Source: Actinokineospora inagensis DSM 44258
GTDB taxonomy: Bacteria; Actinomycetota; Actinomycetes; Mycobacteriales; Pseudonocardiaceae
Length of the DNA: 64,000 nt
Direction of reading: 5' to 3'
Assembly: GCF_000482865.1 (NCBI RefSeq)
Contig: NZ_AXWW01000046.1
Location: 1 to 64,000, forward strand
Shown here: positions 23,987 to 36,252 of the stretch, piece by piece
How positions within the stretch are numbered: position 1 is the stretch's first letter
Layout of the letters: each line of letters begins with the position of its first letter
Translations under genes and position numbers: made by a program
Notes under the pieces: model-generated
The model's database searches: none
What the model was told of the DNA's origin: nothing
What the model saw: only the letters and a program-made list of their open reading frames with translations

Positions 23987-24463
23987 TCACGGACGGGCCG
24001 AGTCCGCGATCGGGCCGAGCACCTCGTAGGGCGGCACCCACCCCTGCTCCACCAACACCCGGTACAGGTCGTGCACCGCCTGGTCCAACTCCGCCCGCTC
24101 CTGACCGGCTTTCGCCAGCGCCCGCGCCGCGTCCAGCAGCGCCTCGTCCAACCGCACCGGCGCCACTCCGGCGTCCGGCTCGGACTCGTCACCGCCGATG
24201 TTGCGCCGCAGGTAGCTGTCCAGCGGCTCGACCGACGGTTCGGCGAACATGCCGACCACCAGGTGCGCGACCCGGTGCAGCTTGGTGTTGTACTGCTGGG
24301 AGAGCCGCACCAGCGCGTCGAACGCCTCCTTCGGCGAACACCGGCGCAACACCACCAGCACGCCCATGGCCTGCTCGATGGTCGCCCGGGTGCGCAGGGC
24401 GCGCCGCAGACCGTCCAACTCGGACTGCAACTGGGCCACCCGCGAGTTCGGGTCCGGCGTCAC
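23987..24463 (-). CDS. ANTAR-domain protein
   Basis: This 158-aa protein has an N-terminal coiled segment (RVAQLQSELDGLRRALRTRA) leading into an ANTAR RNA-binding domain (RATIEQAMGVLVVLRRCSPK, EAFDALVRLSQQYNTKLHRVA, about residues 30-80). A C-terminal helical domain of unknown type follows. ANTAR proteins bind dual-hairpin RNA to prevent termination. No GAF or receiver sensor is attached here. The GTG at 24463 is chosen because GGAGGG lies 5 nt upstream; ATG 24541 (MDAERE) would add 26 residues. It lies just upstream of the anti-sigma operon, in the same direction. Confidence 0.82.
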   Translation of the reverse strand: MTPDPNSRVAQLQSELDGLRRALRTRATIEQAMGVLVVLRRCSPKEAFDALVRLSQQYNTKLHRVAHLVVGMFAEPSVEPLDSYLRRNIGGDESEPDAGVAPVRLDEALLDAARALAKAGQERAELDQAVHDLYRVLVEQGWVPPYEVLGPIADSARP

Positions 24464-24885
24464 CGGCGCCCTCCGGCTCGCCCCTGCGGTCTTCGCACCG
24501 CGGTGCCCATATGACGGTCTTCCCTCCCGCTCCGCGTCCATCCGGCCGACCCCGGCGCGACGTTGGGGTCGACACAGGGGCTGTCCGCGTTCGGCGAGGG
24601 GACGCGTCACGAGCGACAACACCGCCGGGAGACCGGCGGGGTCGGGCAGCACGCAGCCCCTCGCTTCCCGCGAGTGCCGGGCGGCGAGGTCCCCGAAGGG
24701 CCTGCTGGCTCGGGCTGTCGCCCCCGGCGTGCTGCGGCTGCTTGCTCAACCGCTACCGGAGCACTCTAAAGATCACGCCGAAGCGGGCACAAGGCGGGTC
24801 GGGTCCCGCCCGGCGGGCCGCGGCCGTTCCGCCTACGGTGGGTCGCGCAAGCCGCACGACAAGGTGACACGGAAAGGAGCCAGAC
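24464..24885. other. Gene-free region between the ANTAR gene and the HesB-like gene
   Basis: No credible gene is seen in this 422-bp divergent region, apart from a possible N-terminal extension of the ANTAR protein up to 24541 or 24652. CGGGTCGGGTCCCGCCCGGCGGGCCG near 24800 has imperfect dyad symmetry. AAGGAG at 24876 is the ribosome binding site of the next gene. Confidence 0.4.
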
Positions 24886-25182
24886 ATGCTGGCGGTGACA
24901 GAGGCGGCGGCGGACGCGATCAGCGCGCTGACCGCGCAGGACGGGGTGCCGGAGACCGGGGGGCTGCGGTTCACCCTGGTCACGCCCGAGGTCGACGGAG
25001 CACCACTGGCGGTGGCGTTGGCACCCGAACCGGTGGCGGGCGACCAGGTGGTGACCGCGAACGCGGCGCAGGTCTTCCTCGAGCCGGGGGCGGCCGAACT
25101 GCTCGCCGACAAGGTCCTCGACGTGCAGCCCGACGCGGAGGGCCAGCTCAACTTCGCGGTGCTGCACCAGCCCACCGACTGA
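24886..25182 (+). CDS. HesB/IscA-fold protein lacking cysteines
   Basis: This 98-aa protein matches the HesB/YadR (A-type iron-sulfur carrier) fold: LAVTEAAADAISALTAQDG, then GGLRFTLV, VFLEPGAAELLADKVLDVQ and a final LNFAVLHQ strand. A-type carriers bind iron-sulfur clusters through three conserved cysteines, but this product contains no cysteine at all, so it cannot do so in the usual way. Similar cysteine-free relatives occur in actinobacteria with no assigned function. ATG 24886 has an AAGGAG ribosome binding site. Confidence 0.75.
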   Translation: MLAVTEAAADAISALTAQDGVPETGGLRFTLVTPEVDGAPLAVALAPEPVAGDQVVTANAAQVFLEPGAAELLADKVLDVQPDAEGQLNFAVLHQPTD

Positions 25183-25205
25183 GGTGTGATCTGCGCCTAT
25201 CGAGT

Positions 25206-25230
25206 GATTGAAACCACCTGACCTGGGTAG
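25206..25230 (+). promoter_or_regulatory. Candidate stress-type promoter
   Basis: GATT, a 15-nt spacer and GGGTAG lie 39 bp before the next gene. This fits GNNT-N14-16-GGGTA with a final-base mismatch. The evidence is weak on its own. Confidence 0.3.
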
Positions 25231-25268
25231 CCAGCGGACGGGGGATTTTCGGACTCGGGAGGCGGAAC

Positions 25269-25814
25269 ATGGCACGCGGCACGCGGTTGACGGTGGTCCC
25301 CACGGCGCAGGCACCGCTGTGGCGCGGGCTGGACTACGGGCCCGCGGTGGTCGTGCTCAGCCCCGCAGCCGCGAGACCCGCCGATCTCCCGGTCGCCTGG
25401 CAACCGCTGGAACAGCTCTACCAGGTCGCCTGGTGCGCCATCCCGCCGGGAGCGGACGGCGCGGGCTCCCTCGACCGGGTCGAGGACGTCTTGGAGACGC
25501 TGGCCGACCGGCGCACCCGCACCCAGGTCGTCGCGCACACCGCGCTGACCGACGTGGCCTGCCGCATCGCGGCCGAGTTCCCGGACATCGTCCGCGGCCT
25601 CGTCCTCGTCGGCCCCGGCCGCACACCGGAACCGACCGGGGTACCGACCCGTCGGGTCACCCTGGCCAAGACCGCCGTCGGGCCGGGCGCACTGGCCCGG
25701 CCCGACGTGGTCGACGACATCACAGCCGCCTTGGCGGCCGCGGACCACCGTGCCCCGCGCGAGGCGGAGTCAATCCGCATTCGCTGGACCGCTCCCGAAG
25801 CCGTCGGCGAGTAA
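25269..25814 (+). CDS. Alpha/beta-hydrolase-like protein without a recognisable nucleophile
   Basis: This 181-aa product resembles half of an alpha/beta hydrolase: GPAVVVLSPAAARPADLPVA, then TQVVAHTALTDVACRIAAEF and PDIVRGLVLVGPGRTPEPTG. At the nucleophile elbow, where G-x-S-x-G is expected, it reads A-H-T-A-L, so serine catalysis is unlikely. The C-terminal cap and catalytic histidine region is missing or very short. It may be a shortened, non-catalytic member of the family with a binding or regulatory role, or a decaying gene with an intact frame. Position 25269 is the only good start. Confidence 0.55.
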   Translation: MARGTRLTVVPTAQAPLWRGLDYGPAVVVLSPAAARPADLPVAWQPLEQLYQVAWCAIPPGADGAGSLDRVEDVLETLADRRTRTQVVAHTALTDVACRIAAEFPDIVRGLVLVGPGRTPEPTGVPTRRVTLAKTAVGPGALARPDVVDDITAALAAADHRAPREAESIRIRWTAPEAVGE

Positions 25815-25949
25815 GGCGATCGCGCACTCTTCCCGCAGGCGACTGCCATCCACAGTGGCCAGGACCCACCGGTTCCGGCCGGTGTGGGCGGGGTCGCGGT
25901 TGTGGGCGGTGCCGGGCGTCGGCCAGGGTGGGGCGAATATCGTGGTGGT

Positions 25950-27350
<1,401 letters not shown>

Positions 27351-27385
27351 CCCCGGGTGGGTGAACTCCACCGCCGCCCAACTGG

Positions 27386-27408
27386 GCGTCGTCCGATTCG
27401 GACGACGC
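27386..27408 (+). terminator. Terminator-like hairpin after lpd
   Basis: GCGTCGTCCG (27386-27395), ATT and CGGACGACGC (27399-27408) form a perfect 10-bp stem with a 3-nt loop. It lies 36 bp after the lpd stop codon. Confidence 0.7.
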
Positions 27409-27484
27409 GCGCCTGAGCGCGTCGGGTGCCCGGGGTGCACGCTGCAAGGCGAGCCACCCCGGTGCCCGACGTGAAAGGCGAGCC

Positions 27485-27988
27485 ATGTCCCGTCTGCTTT
27501 CCCGCCTGCTGCCCACCTCCGTCGCCCTCGTCGCCGCCGCGGCACTCGCCACGCCCGCGCACGCCGCGCTGACCCCGACCTTGACCGCCTCGTTCAGCGT
27601 GGGCGCGTCCGCGATCAACGCGACCCGCAACCTGGTGCTGGTCGCGCACAACTCCGACGCGCCGACCATTTTCAGCTACGGGTTCACCGCGACCATCCCG
27701 GCCGGACTCACCCCCGCGGGCGCGCCGAGCACCGATTGCGGCGGTACGACCGTGTCCACCACCCCGCTGGGCCGGAGCGCGTTCGGTCCCGCGCCGAACA
27801 ACGTCTACGTCGAGGGATCGATGTACCTCGGCCTCAACACGTGCACGATCACCGTCCCGGTCACCGCGACCACCGAGGGCACCTCCTCGTTGTGCCCGGC
27901 GGGCATCGCGGACCTGAGCGGCCTGACCAACTTCGCGTCCTGCGTGTCGATCTACTTCGAGGCGCCGCACCCGTCCCGCGCGGGCTGA
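27485..27988 (+). CDS. Small secreted protein, paralogue 1 of 3
   Basis: This 167-aa product has a Sec signal peptide (MSRLLSRLLPTSVALVAAAA, cut after AHA) and a mature part of about 138 aa rich in Thr, Ser, Ala and Val. That predicts a beta-sandwich. The family signature is shared with the next two loci: SVGASAIN near the mature N-terminus, then IPVT-like strands and CxSIYFEAPHPSR at the C-terminus. Four cysteines suggest two disulfides. I do not recognise a named family. A hairpin with CACCCCGG lies just before the ribosome binding site. CGGGTGGGTGAA at 27354-27365 recurs before each family member. Confidence 0.8.
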   Translation: MSRLLSRLLPTSVALVAAAALATPAHAALTPTLTASFSVGASAINATRNLVLVAHNSDAPTIFSYGFTATIPAGLTPAGAPSTDCGGTTVSTTPLGRSAFGPAPNNVYVEGSMYLGLNTCTITVPVTATTEGTSSLCPAGIADLSGLTNFASCVSIYFEAPHPSRAG

Positions 27989-28038
27989 ACCACCGCCCGG
28001 GTGGGTGAAAACCACCACCTGTCCGATGGGGATGTCCG

Positions 28039-28062
28039 GTGTGGATGGTCCACATCGGGTAC
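28039..28062 (+). promoter_or_regulatory. Stress-type promoter of secreted-protein paralogue 2
   Basis: GTGT, 14 nt and GGGTAC match GNNT-N14-16-GGGTAC. The -10 lies 53 bp before the chosen start codon. The equivalent spot before the pseudogene copy has the same elements. Confidence 0.45.
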
Positions 28063-28114
28063 CAGGTTGAGGAGCACCGGTCTGGTGCGCAGGTGATCGT
28101 GAAAGGTGACCCCG

Positions 28115-28642
28115 ATGCGAAGTTCGTATTCCCGCCTGGTGCCCGCCGCCGTCGCGGCCGCCGCGGTCGTGGTGGCAGGCACGGCGATCCCCGCGCAGGC
28201 CACGGTGGGGTCAACGCTGACCGCCGCGTACAGCGTGGGCGCCTCGGCGATCAACACGGCGCGGAACCTGGTGTTCACCATCTCCAACCAGCCGATCGTG
28301 CCGCAGAACTTCAGCTTCCAGTTCCAGGTGACCCTGCCGCTGACCTTCACCGTGTCCGGGACGCCGACAACCACGTGCAGCGGCGGCACCATCACCGACT
28401 CGCCGCCGTTCCGCAGCGCGACCTCGGAACGGACCATGCTGCCCGCGGTGATGAAGTACGTCACCGGTTCGCTCAACATGTCCACCGCCTCCTGCACGGC
28501 CACGATCCCGGTCACCACCACCACCGAGGGCACCTACAACACGTGCGCCGCGAACATCACCGGCACATCCGGTATCGGGACCAACCTGAGCACCTGCGCG
28601 TCGATCTACTTCGAGGCGCCGCACCCGTCGCGCGTTCGGTGA
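28115..28642 (+). CDS. Small secreted protein, paralogue 2 of 3
   Basis: This 175-aa secreted protein has a signal peptide (MRSSYSRLVPAAVAAAAVVV, cut near AQA). The mature part matches paralogue 1 at AYSVGASAINTARNLVFTIS, PVTTTTEGTYNTC and CASIYFEAPHPSRVR. Four or more cysteines suggest disulfides. The start at 28115 is taken, an in-frame ATG behind GAAAGGTGACCCCG; 28106 is possible. The tandem position, conserved upstream CGGGTGGGTGAA (27998-28009) and stress-type promoter suggest a recently duplicated set of envelope proteins. Function is unknown; a repeated beta-sandwich could serve adhesion or a surface layer. Confidence 0.8.
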   Translation: MRSSYSRLVPAAVAAAAVVVAGTAIPAQATVGSTLTAAYSVGASAINTARNLVFTISNQPIVPQNFSFQFQVTLPLTFTVSGTPTTTCSGGTITDSPPFRSATSERTMLPAVMKYVTGSLNMSTASCTATIPVTTTTEGTYNTCAANITGTSGIGTNLSTCASIYFEAPHPSRVR

Positions 28643-28680
28643 GCCGCCGGTCGGGTGGGTGAAATGCCGCGGTCCGACCG

Positions 28681-28705
28681 GTGTGGACACCCACGCACCG
28701 GGTAC
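28681..28705 (+). promoter_or_regulatory. Stress-type promoter of the decayed paralogue 3
   Basis: GTGT, 15 nt and GGGTAC (28700-28705) match the general-stress consensus. It is the counterpart of the promoter before paralogue 2, retained although the gene behind it is broken. Confidence 0.4.
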
Positions 28706-28757
28706 CGGGGAAGGTGACGAGCGCCGTCCCCAGTGCTCGGTGCGAAAGGTGACGTCG

Positions 28758-29099
28758 ATGCGATGTCCGTTCCGTCGCTTGGTGCCCGCCGCCGTCGCTC
28801 TACGCGGCGTACGCGGTGGAGGCCTCGGCAATCAACACGCCGCCGATGCTGCTGTTGTCGGTCGGTAACTCGACCATCCCCACCTCGTTCAGCTTCACCT
28901 TCACGGTGACCCTCCCGGTCGGCTTCACCGTGTCCGGGACGCCGACCAGCACCTGCGTGGGCGCCGGGGTCTCCGACTTGCCGCCCACGGTCCGGAACCC
29001 GTTGCCGCGCGTGGTCAAGTACGTCAGCGGCAGCATGACCCCGGCCTTGCCCTACCGCGCCGTGTCGATCCCGGTCACCACCCGTCGCGCGTTCGGTAG
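28758..29099 (+). pseudogene. Small secreted protein, paralogue 3, broken by two deletions
   Basis: The reading begins MRCPFRRLVPAAVA like paralogue 2. The hydrophobic core of the signal peptide is then deleted, and the frame shifts before (L)YAAYAVEASAIN resumes. The body (TFTVTLPVGFTVSGTPTSTC, then VVKYVSGSM) matches paralogue 2. Near the end a second deletion joins IPVTT directly to the terminal RRAFG region, removing the TEGT and CASIYFEAP parts. The short shared sequence CACC at the join suggests microhomology deletion. The stop is TAG at 29097-29099. An internal frame from 28816 is open but lacks a signal peptide. Confidence 0.8.
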
Positions 29100-29100
29100 G

Positions 29101-29268
29101 TCAGGCCCGGCGGGTGTGTTCGGCGTCGTAGGCGAGGTCGGCGTAGTCGGGGGCGGGGTCGGTCTCCTTGAGGATGACCATGTCCTCGGGGCGAACCCGG
29201 GCGGGCAGCTCGCCAAAACGCACATGCCGCAGGAACGAGAACTCCGCATCGGTGAACTGCTCTGCCAT
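29101..29268 (-). CDS. Conserved small hypothetical protein (55 aa)
   Basis: The frame from ATG 29268 encodes MAEQFTDAEFSFLRHVRFGE, then LPARVRPEDMVILKETDP and an acidic end (DYADLAYDAEHTRRA). The compact, charged sequence and good codon use suggest a real small protein, with no family I can name. It converges on the decayed secreted-protein gene, the two stops being one base apart. A longer frame reaching 29523 is less likely, because its extra residues have no protein-like pattern. Confidence 0.6.
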   Translation of the reverse strand: MAEQFTDAEFSFLRHVRFGELPARVRPEDMVILKETDPAPDYADLAYDAEHTRRA

Positions 29269-29521
29269 GCCGCGATTGTGCACTCCGCAGCCACCGGCTG
29301 GACAGGGTTCGCTCGACCGGGTGGGCCGCGCGCCCATTCGGCCGCCGCATCTGCTCATGAGCACGCATGTGCACTCGGCGCTGCGTGCGCACGATTGGGA
29401 GAAGGGTGATTCGGCGGGGCTGTTCGGCTGGAACGTGCGCTGTACGGGAGCACTCCGGGTGGCCGCGGGGCCATGATCCAGGTGGCCCACATCGTTGGGC
29501 CGGAATCGGAGGAAACCTCGC

Positions 29522-30172
29522 ATGCGCAGTGTTGCCCGCCGGATGATCCCCGCCGCGCTCGCCCTGGTGAGCGCCGCCGCGGTCGGGCTGGCCCAGCCCG
29601 CCGCCGCGGCCGTCCCCTACCACTTCGAAGCCCACGCGTCCGGGCTCACCGCCACCACCCCGCTCGGGTCGACCAACCTCGTCCCGGCCGACGTGTCCAG
29701 TTCGACCCCCGCCTCCAGCGGGCAGACCTTGTCGCCCCCGGCGGTGCCGCTCGTCGGTACCGTGGGCACGGTCAGCGTCAGCGCCGCGGGCACCGAGGAC
29801 GCGGCGGGCCTGCGCACCTCGACCGCCAACGTGTCGGTGAGCAACGTCAGCCTGCTCACCATCCCGCTGCTCGGCACCGTGGTGACCGCCGACTCGATCG
29901 GCTCCACCGCCACCACGACCACCGACGCCGTGGGCAACCGCTCGTCGAGCGGTTCGGCCACCTTCACCAACCTGCGGGTACTCGGCAACCTGATCCCGAA
30001 CCCGGTGCCCGACCAGACGATCTCGATCGGCGTGCTGGGCACCGTCCGGCTCAACCACGTGGTGAACGCCGGGTCCAGCGTCTCGGTCACGCCGGTCTCG
30101 ATCAACCTGACCATCCCGGTGGTCGGCGCCATCAGCGCCAACGTGGCGGGGACGAACACCGCGCTGACCTGA
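29522..30172 (+). CDS. Secreted protein, choice-of-anchor P-like
   Basis: This 216-aa product has a signal peptide (MRSVARRMIPAALALVSAAA, cut near AAA). The mature part of about 185 aa is made of alternating Val/Thr/Ser strands: ASGLTATTPLGSTNLVPADV, then TANVSVSNVSLLTIPLLGTV and ATFTNLRVLGNLIPN. This resembles the choice-of-anchor P family of actinobacterial exported proteins. It has no cysteine and no sortase motif. ATG 29522 has GGAGGAA upstream. It is the fourth secreted-protein gene in this stretch but is not a close paralogue of the other three. Confidence 0.72.
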   Translation: MRSVARRMIPAALALVSAAAVGLAQPAAAAVPYHFEAHASGLTATTPLGSTNLVPADVSSSTPASSGQTLSPPAVPLVGTVGTVSVSAAGTEDAAGLRTSTANVSVSNVSLLTIPLLGTVVTADSIGSTATTTTDAVGNRSSSGSATFTNLRVLGNLIPNPVPDQTISIGVLGTVRLNHVVNAGSSVSVTPVSINLTIPVVGAISANVAGTNTALT

Positions 30173-30238
30173 TCGGCGCTGCCGGGCACCGTGCCGACCT
30201 GCTGACGGCATCGGCGTCCACGGGCGTCCAAACAAAGC

Positions 30239-30274
30239 ACGGCCCCCGCGAGCGCCATTGCTCGCGGGGGCCGT
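30239..30274. terminator. Strong bidirectional terminator between the secreted-protein gene and gltD
   Basis: ACGGCCCCCGCGAGC (30239-30253), a 6-nt loop and GCTCGCGGGGGCCGT (30260-30274) form a perfect 15-bp stem. AACAAAG on the left gives a T-rich run when read leftward, towards the end of the gltBD transcript. Confidence 0.85.
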
Positions 30275-30290
30275 TGTCCGGGGGAACCGG

Positions 30291-36252
<5,962 letters not shown>

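Follow-up and report, generated by a model that had tools for sequence, protein, structure and literature searches.

The window, a stretch of 64,000 nucleotides, belongs to contig C39 of a 7.28-Mb genome from the genus Actinokineospora (Pseudonocardiaceae) and carries a tandem array of small genes. To the left of the array lies a lpdA-type dihydrolipoyl dehydrogenase gene (25884..27350, + strand; Pfam Pyr_redox_2 and Pyr_redox_dim), which occupied the same position in all eight genomes found to contain an array. The first two array genes are intact, each encoding a single DUF7933-like module with four cysteines: P1 (27485..27988, +) encodes 167 aa, and P2 (28115..28642, +) encodes 175 aa when read from its ATG, with a GTG at 28106 as an alternative start. 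The third, P3 (28758..29099, +), is a pseudogene. Over aligned positions, whole-unit DNA identity was 66% between P1 and P2, 70% between P2 and P3, and 60% between P1 and P3.

The TAG of the P3 remnant stops one base short of a small convergent gene of 55 aa (29101..29268, −), which formed the right edge of the array in seven of the eight array genomes. A match to the 55-aa gene (MAEQFTDAEFSFLRHVRFGELP...) was obtained at 12 of 16 lpdA-gltD loci, counting the window, whether the array was present or absent; a Pfam scan of the longer open reading frame (ORF) around it returned no significant match. Farther right stands a stand-alone choice-of-anchor-P gene (29522..30172, +) with a signal peptide recognized by eye, which scored 62.8 bits against the cut-off of 27 for NCBIfam NF040603 when scanned from a TTG at 29495. 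The right neighbor of these genes, located by protein search (30291..31742, −), is presumably a gltD-type glutamate synthase small subunit.

The preliminary description of this DNA proposed a tandem family with a shared signal peptide, an SVGASAIN-like core, and an IYFEAPHPS end, and all three were present in P1 and P2. Putative Sec-type signal peptides with an AxA-type site were visible by eye in both proteins, that of P1 ending in AHA, suggesting that the array proteins are probably secreted. The same description counted “four or more” cysteines; this amounts to four that were invariant in all 22 intact members of the family. The loop between cysteines 1 and 2 varied in length among the intact members. 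Two disulfides probably brace each module; judging from strand order, the pairs in P1 may be C57-C92 and C109-C125 (mature numbering). Neither an anchor nor a binding site was identified.

Decay of the third copy

The third copy had been described as lost by two deletions, and comparison with P2 bore this out. P3 lacked a net 62 nt at one point and a net 106 nt at another, and the frame opened by its ATG closed at 28868 after 36 aa, so that its start-to-stop frame is disrupted relative to the intact paralogues. The first junction (28796..28798, +) carried a 3-nt CGC overlap, and the net 62 nt missing there accounted for the proposed loss of the signal-peptide core with a frameshift: the distance from ATG to SAIN was 64 nt in P3 vs. 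126 nt in P2, and the core frame was shifted. The second junction (29079..29082, +) sat on CACC, the microhomology to which the C-terminal deletion had been attributed, and left a tail of 32 nt vs. 138 nt in P2. Both junctions were read from the sequences. Since the losses totaled 168 nt, a multiple of three, the head and tail of P3 lie in one frame with the core between them shifted; the core remnant is open in that other frame from 28789 to 29067. Only one of the four family cysteines was left. No counterpart of the P3 form occurred among the 22 intact family genes of the eight array genomes. The decay of P3 is well supported, and P3 is a dead copy that arose from two microhomology deletions.

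The GC3 of the P3 core was 0.98, compared with 0.90-0.97 in the intact genes, and because this value is like that of the intact genes, the loss may be recent. Neither the GC3 nor the open core gave any sign of long neutral drift. These same features could suggest that P3 is alive, with a truncated protein lacking a signal peptide being made from a GTG at 28816 and used intracellularly, as the core frame stays open up to 29409, and that GTG could serve as its start. However, the sequence directly upstream of the GTG contains no Shine-Dalgarno-like sequence, the signal peptide, the C-terminus, and three of the four cysteines are gone, and the open frame would cross the antisense of the next gene. 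Long open frames are also common at such a G+C content. We consider a living P3 very unlikely and treat the copy as dead.

A further truncated copy was observed in the genome designated G002, where an extra family gene lacking its N-terminal part lies at the 3′ end of the array (L045:7471-7785, −). This decayed end copy is an independent parallel to P3.

Copy number and divergence within Actinokineospora

The search for homologues and their copy number in other genomes showed that single-module genes were present in 8 of 16 genomes of the genus, at one to seven intact copies each. The total of 22 comprised seven copies in G002, five in G006, two each in G000, G005, G008, and G014, and one each in G003 and G011. 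All 22 were located beside lpdA with gltD beyond. A single-sequence scan of genome contigs gave no match, but closer alignment did match relatives, identifying the same locus in Actinokineospora globicatena, A. terrae, and A. diospyrosa. Eight array-less stretches, three of which (L068, L069, and L072) stop short of lpdA, yielded no match for P1, P2, or the choice-of-anchor-P gene. Weak single profile matches turned up as well, for example in G001 (E 9.2e-4) and at another site in G014 (E 3.3e-4).

In a maximum-likelihood tree of 26 rows, with a root for drawing only and support under 80 on 11 of 23 inner branches, P1, P2, and P3 formed one clade of the window species (97/95), within which P2 and P3 were sisters (97/80). 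This clade indicated that P3 is a local duplicate. Other species-local clades were G002_3-5 and G006_4-5, and the first copies of G008 and G005 paired as orthologues (99/98). Together with the second truncated 3′-terminal copy in G002, the three species-specific clades suggested that the module has been multiplied and lost by tandem birth-and-death.

The array evolves fast: dN/dS between array orthologues was 0.34-0.55 (five pairs) vs. 0.07-0.19 for lpdA in the same genomes (eight pairs). Array paralogues gave 0.53-1.08 (ten pairs, two of them with P3), and the choice-of-anchor-P gene gave 0.35-1.15 (four pairs), although a GC3 of about 95% probably biases such ratios upward. Taken at face value, the paralogue ratios could indicate that the array members are diversifying recognition molecules, acting in self/non-self discrimination or ligand binding and selected for difference, with no structural role. 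The variable length of the loop between cysteines 1 and 2, the loop's dN/dS of 1.50 in the P1/P2 comparison (20 codons), and the range of intact copy number from 0 to 7 would be consistent with such a function. However, the loop showed no excess between G002_3 and G002_4 (0.24) or between G008_1 and G005_1 (0.18), and the orthologues were constrained. As a GC3 near 95% compresses dS, ratios near 1 are not proof, and we make no claim of positive selection on the array. A recognition role appeared quite unlikely to us, and an extracellular structural or adhesive role of the array proteins is the most likely reading.

PeSy1, a secreted elicitor of 109 aa, was weighed as a relative, and we claim no relation; Actinokineospora homologues are mentioned in the PeSy1 paper (PMC10098051).

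Conserved element and promoter-like boxes upstream of the array genes

The 12-mer CGGGTGGGTGAA, reported to precede each of the three genes, was exact at 27354..27365, 27998..28009, and 28652..28663 (all +). These three sites in the 64-kb window compared with a mean of 0.01 in 100 shuffles. Genome-wide, 11 exact sites were present, and the other eight were on contigs where no family gene turned up in the protein search. A shorter form, CCCGGGTGGGTSR, was common in the window genome, at 65 sites vs. 17 for the reversed control. It was far commoner in G013, with 111 forward and 131 reverse sites (control 1 and 2), and several of the CCCGGGTGGGTSR sites in G004 formed head-on pairs about 130 nt apart, like a dispersed inverted repeat.

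Before copy 2, the 12-mer covers the start of a longer element, GGTGAAA..CACCTGTCC. The full conserved element, GGTGAAAAC..CACCTGTCC..GTGTGGATGG (28000..28053, +), had 28 of 54 columns invariant across six species (P2, G008_2, G005_2, G003_1, G014_2, and G006_1); when G002_1, G002_7, and G011_1 were added to the alignment, the invariant columns fell to eight. Copy 1 is preceded by the 12-mer but not by the remainder of the element, and before copy 3, GGTGAAA is retained and CACCTGTCC is missing. The strict pattern GTGAAA-N3..8-CACCTGTCC occurred once in each of the six genomes, always before a family gene, and was absent from the other ten; its reversed control occurred once, in G003. A wider regulon was not apparent: model R1, built from the six, gave 54.7-64.9 bits for the sites on which it was trained, and every other match in the 16 genomes stayed at 19.3 bits or lower. 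The training sites score high by construction, and the informative part of this result is the gap down to 19.3 bits. In the 16 genomes, the upstream element was found only at the array locus.

Across the 23 upstream regions, which are related and not independent, GGTGAAA was present in ten vs. 0.09 expected from mononucleotide shuffles, and GGGTAC was present in nine, 44-58 nt before the start, vs. 0.95 expected. The upstream region of P1 contains none of GGTGAAA, GGGTAC, and CACCTGTCC; the same was true of a number of internal genes in the G002 and G006 arrays, which sit almost end to end. The distance from GGTGAAA to GGGTAC was 63 nt in G003_1, G005_2, G008_2, and G014_2, 53 nt in P2, and 42 nt in P3. 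It is possible that GGGTAC is a −10-like box, and GGTGAAA..CACCTGTCC may act as a putative operator upstream of it. For P2, this putative box would be the GGGTACC at 28057..28063 (+), 58 nt before the ATG, and the same heptamer precedes copy 3 at 28700..28706 (+).

Sigma-B/sigma-F-type stress promoters combine a GNNT-type −35 with GGGTAY after 14-16 nt. “Stress-type promoters” had been described before copies 2 and 3, and GGGTACC was indeed present at both; the likeness goes no further than resemblance, and the spacing from GTGTGG to GGGTACC varied, being 12 nt for copy 2 and 13 nt for copy 3. A looser form of the GTGTGG/GGGTACC pair was present seven times in the genome and three times in the reversed control. 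No sigma-70-type site was found.

Rfam searches of four relatives gave no hit at gathering scores, and positions 24000-33000 of the window gave one sub-threshold hit (E 0.14), indicating that the upstream element is explained by no known RNA family. An RNA hairpin within the element was also considered and rejected; of nine predicted pairs, none had changed on both sides, and covariation gave it no support.

An Ig-like module shared with larger exported proteins

The preliminary description stated that the family had no recognized domain, which our profile searches contradicted: Pfam DUF7933 (PF25564) was matched by 20 of the 22 intact members at E <= 0.01, with a best value of 5.7e-14. It was likewise silent on the larger proteins that contain the module, on the choice-of-anchor-P gene (29522-30172), and on the more extensive upstream element. 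Scanned as single sequences, P1 (21.3 bits) and P2 (23.9 bits) fell under the DUF7933 gathering score of 26.5, as did three further single-module members, and the middle modules of three larger proteins scored above it, at 39.3-56.5 bits. When the array family was compared, profile against profile, with the middle module from four larger proteins, the probability was 99.6% (E 4.2e-24).

AlphaFold2 produced all-beta models for both P1 (pLDDT 88.6, pTM 0.82; eight aligned sequences) and P2 (pLDDT 86.6, pTM 0.80; nine aligned sequences). A Foldseek search with the P1 model returned three matches at E <= 0.001, including a cohesin and a CLIPPER domain, the top match being cohesin 2xdh (E 4.4e-4). 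VIA placed the CLIPPER domain 9ifr first (Z 11.6, rmsd 2.5, 115 aligned), followed by the BcpA pilin (Z 11.3) and cohesins (Z about 10). A sequence search of the PDB gave a single chance-level match (E 0.34). The predicted fold of P1 is CLIPPER/cohesin-like, that is, a CnaA-like Ig beta-sandwich, and a shared Ig-like fold by itself shows no function.

In both its sequence match and its beta-sandwich model, the array family resembles DUF7933, a CnaA-like Ig domain of surface proteins. In larger proteins, however, DUF7933 is one module among several, whereas in the array, it makes up the whole mature protein of about 140 residues. A published survey (PMC12617251) places DUF7933 among CnaA-like domains predicted to hold intramolecular isopeptide bonds and reports that disulfides are prevalent in it. 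The survey also assigns a Lys-Asn isopeptide bond to CLIPPER (DUF11; PDB 9IFR), which was the closest structural match of the P1 model, yet shared only 10% identity with it. Thirteen of the 22 intact members, P1 included, are without any lysine, and P2 has one. A Lys-Asn bond is therefore impossible in those 13 members, and the Lys-Asp-Asn triad of isopeptide-bonded CLIPPER/DUF7933 domains is absent from them; in the array modules, the cysteines probably do the bracing instead. Cellulosomal cohesins and sortase pilins have the same general fold as the P1 model (Z about 9-11) at about 7-15% identity, but no sorting motif was noticed by eye in the array proteins.

The larger exported protein consists of an N-module that is weakly jelly-roll-like, a DUF7933 module, and often a choice-of-anchor-P C-module. 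Profile matches were obtained in 32 of 297 family genomes (the genus included) and 19 of 394 class genomes (the window’s own included), with only the best 8-11 candidates per genome scored. Forty-five non-genus loci were fetched and checked for modules, 44 of them distinct (L086 is identical to L110). A DUF7933 module was present in 35 of the 44, preceded in frame by the N-module in 30, and 11 of these 30 also had the choice-of-anchor-P module. Five loci, one near a contig end, had the DUF7933 module without the N-module, and nine with weak matches had neither. The window genome encodes a larger protein of its own on another contig (L050; DUF7933 56.5 bits, choice-of-anchor P 126.4 bits), and family protein matches in this genome were confined to C39 and, in the fused form, C26. 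The N-module of the L050 protein gave an HpiC1-like match under the cut-off of that family. In all three larger proteins tested, choice-of-anchor P was the C-module (126-134 bits).

In seven of the eight array genomes, a choice-of-anchor-P-like gene followed on the right, which in the window lies beyond the 55-aa gene. NCBIfam was run on five of the seven, four of which scored above the cut-off, and G014 gave no hit; in G008, the gene was recognized by eye alone, and in G002 by tblastn alone. The gene that follows the array in the window is a member of NF040603, but the array proteins themselves are not. G011, the remaining array genome, has a fused three-module gene directly after the single-module gene. 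The array module and its neighbor thus look like the two halves of a protein that is fused elsewhere, and the stand-alone choice-of-anchor-P protein is a possible partner of the array modules. The fast divergence of its gene weakens the reading of a tight partnership.

The existence of fused forms elsewhere, the stand-alone choice-of-anchor-P neighbor here, and the fused gene at the G011 locus suggested that the array is most likely a freed module. Because the root of the tree is not fixed and support stays below 80 on 11 of its 23 inner branches, we infer this release only from the distribution of the forms in the samples of 297 and 394 genomes, at the best 8-11 candidates per genome. The reverse order, in which single-module genes are older and a module gene fused with a neighboring choice-of-anchor-P gene to give the three-module proteins, has in its favor that the two kinds of gene are near neighbors in seven of the eight array genomes and that both forms occur at the G011 locus. 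However, fused forms were found across the family and class samples and stand-alone tandem genes in Actinokineospora alone, and the three fused modules in the tree formed one clade (100/96) beside G011_1; we therefore regard an origin by fusion as unlikely and favor release from the larger protein.

Taken as a whole, our proposal, which we hold to be probable, is that the array genes encode small exported single-module DUF7933/CLIPPER-like Ig beta-sandwiches with their own signal peptides, matching the central portion of a bigger exported protein. In Actinokineospora, this module would have been freed, placed between lpdA and the 55-aa gene, and then multiplied and lost in tandem. The soluble modules, perhaps with their choice-of-anchor-P neighbor, would most likely make up or decorate a layer, extracellular or on the cell surface, or an adhesive. 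A more speculative idea, to which we give little credence, is that the freed, disulfide-braced modules under their private element could replace one another as caps, competitors, or linkers of the parent three-module protein and of its stand-alone choice-of-anchor-P half; if so, surface assembly would be tuned by gene copy number.

The array represents a tandem expansion, specific to this lineage, of an extracellular Ig-like module of a known kind, and the gene family is lively but mostly ordinary. No description of it was found in the open-access literature searched. Our analysis assigns a domain to these uncharacterized exported proteins and points to where they probably came from and to a possible partner. 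The locus also offers a natural series, with zero to seven intact copies, two broken ones, and one species with both free and fused forms, in which a module can be watched becoming an independent tandem gene family. This series and the private upstream element, which is directly testable, may be of use to specialists.

Two observations concern the larger proteins. At the array locus of G011 (L048:7510-11071), the fused three-module gene is followed by a 631-aa ORF with apparent tetratricopeptide-type repeats, as seen by eye. In Nocardioides marmoriginsengisoli (L112:5131-6468), an N-module and a DUF7933-like module are followed by LPETG and a hydrophobic tail, with no choice-of-anchor module; this relative is probably sortase-anchored, and its LPETG ending would fit surface display of the larger-protein architecture.
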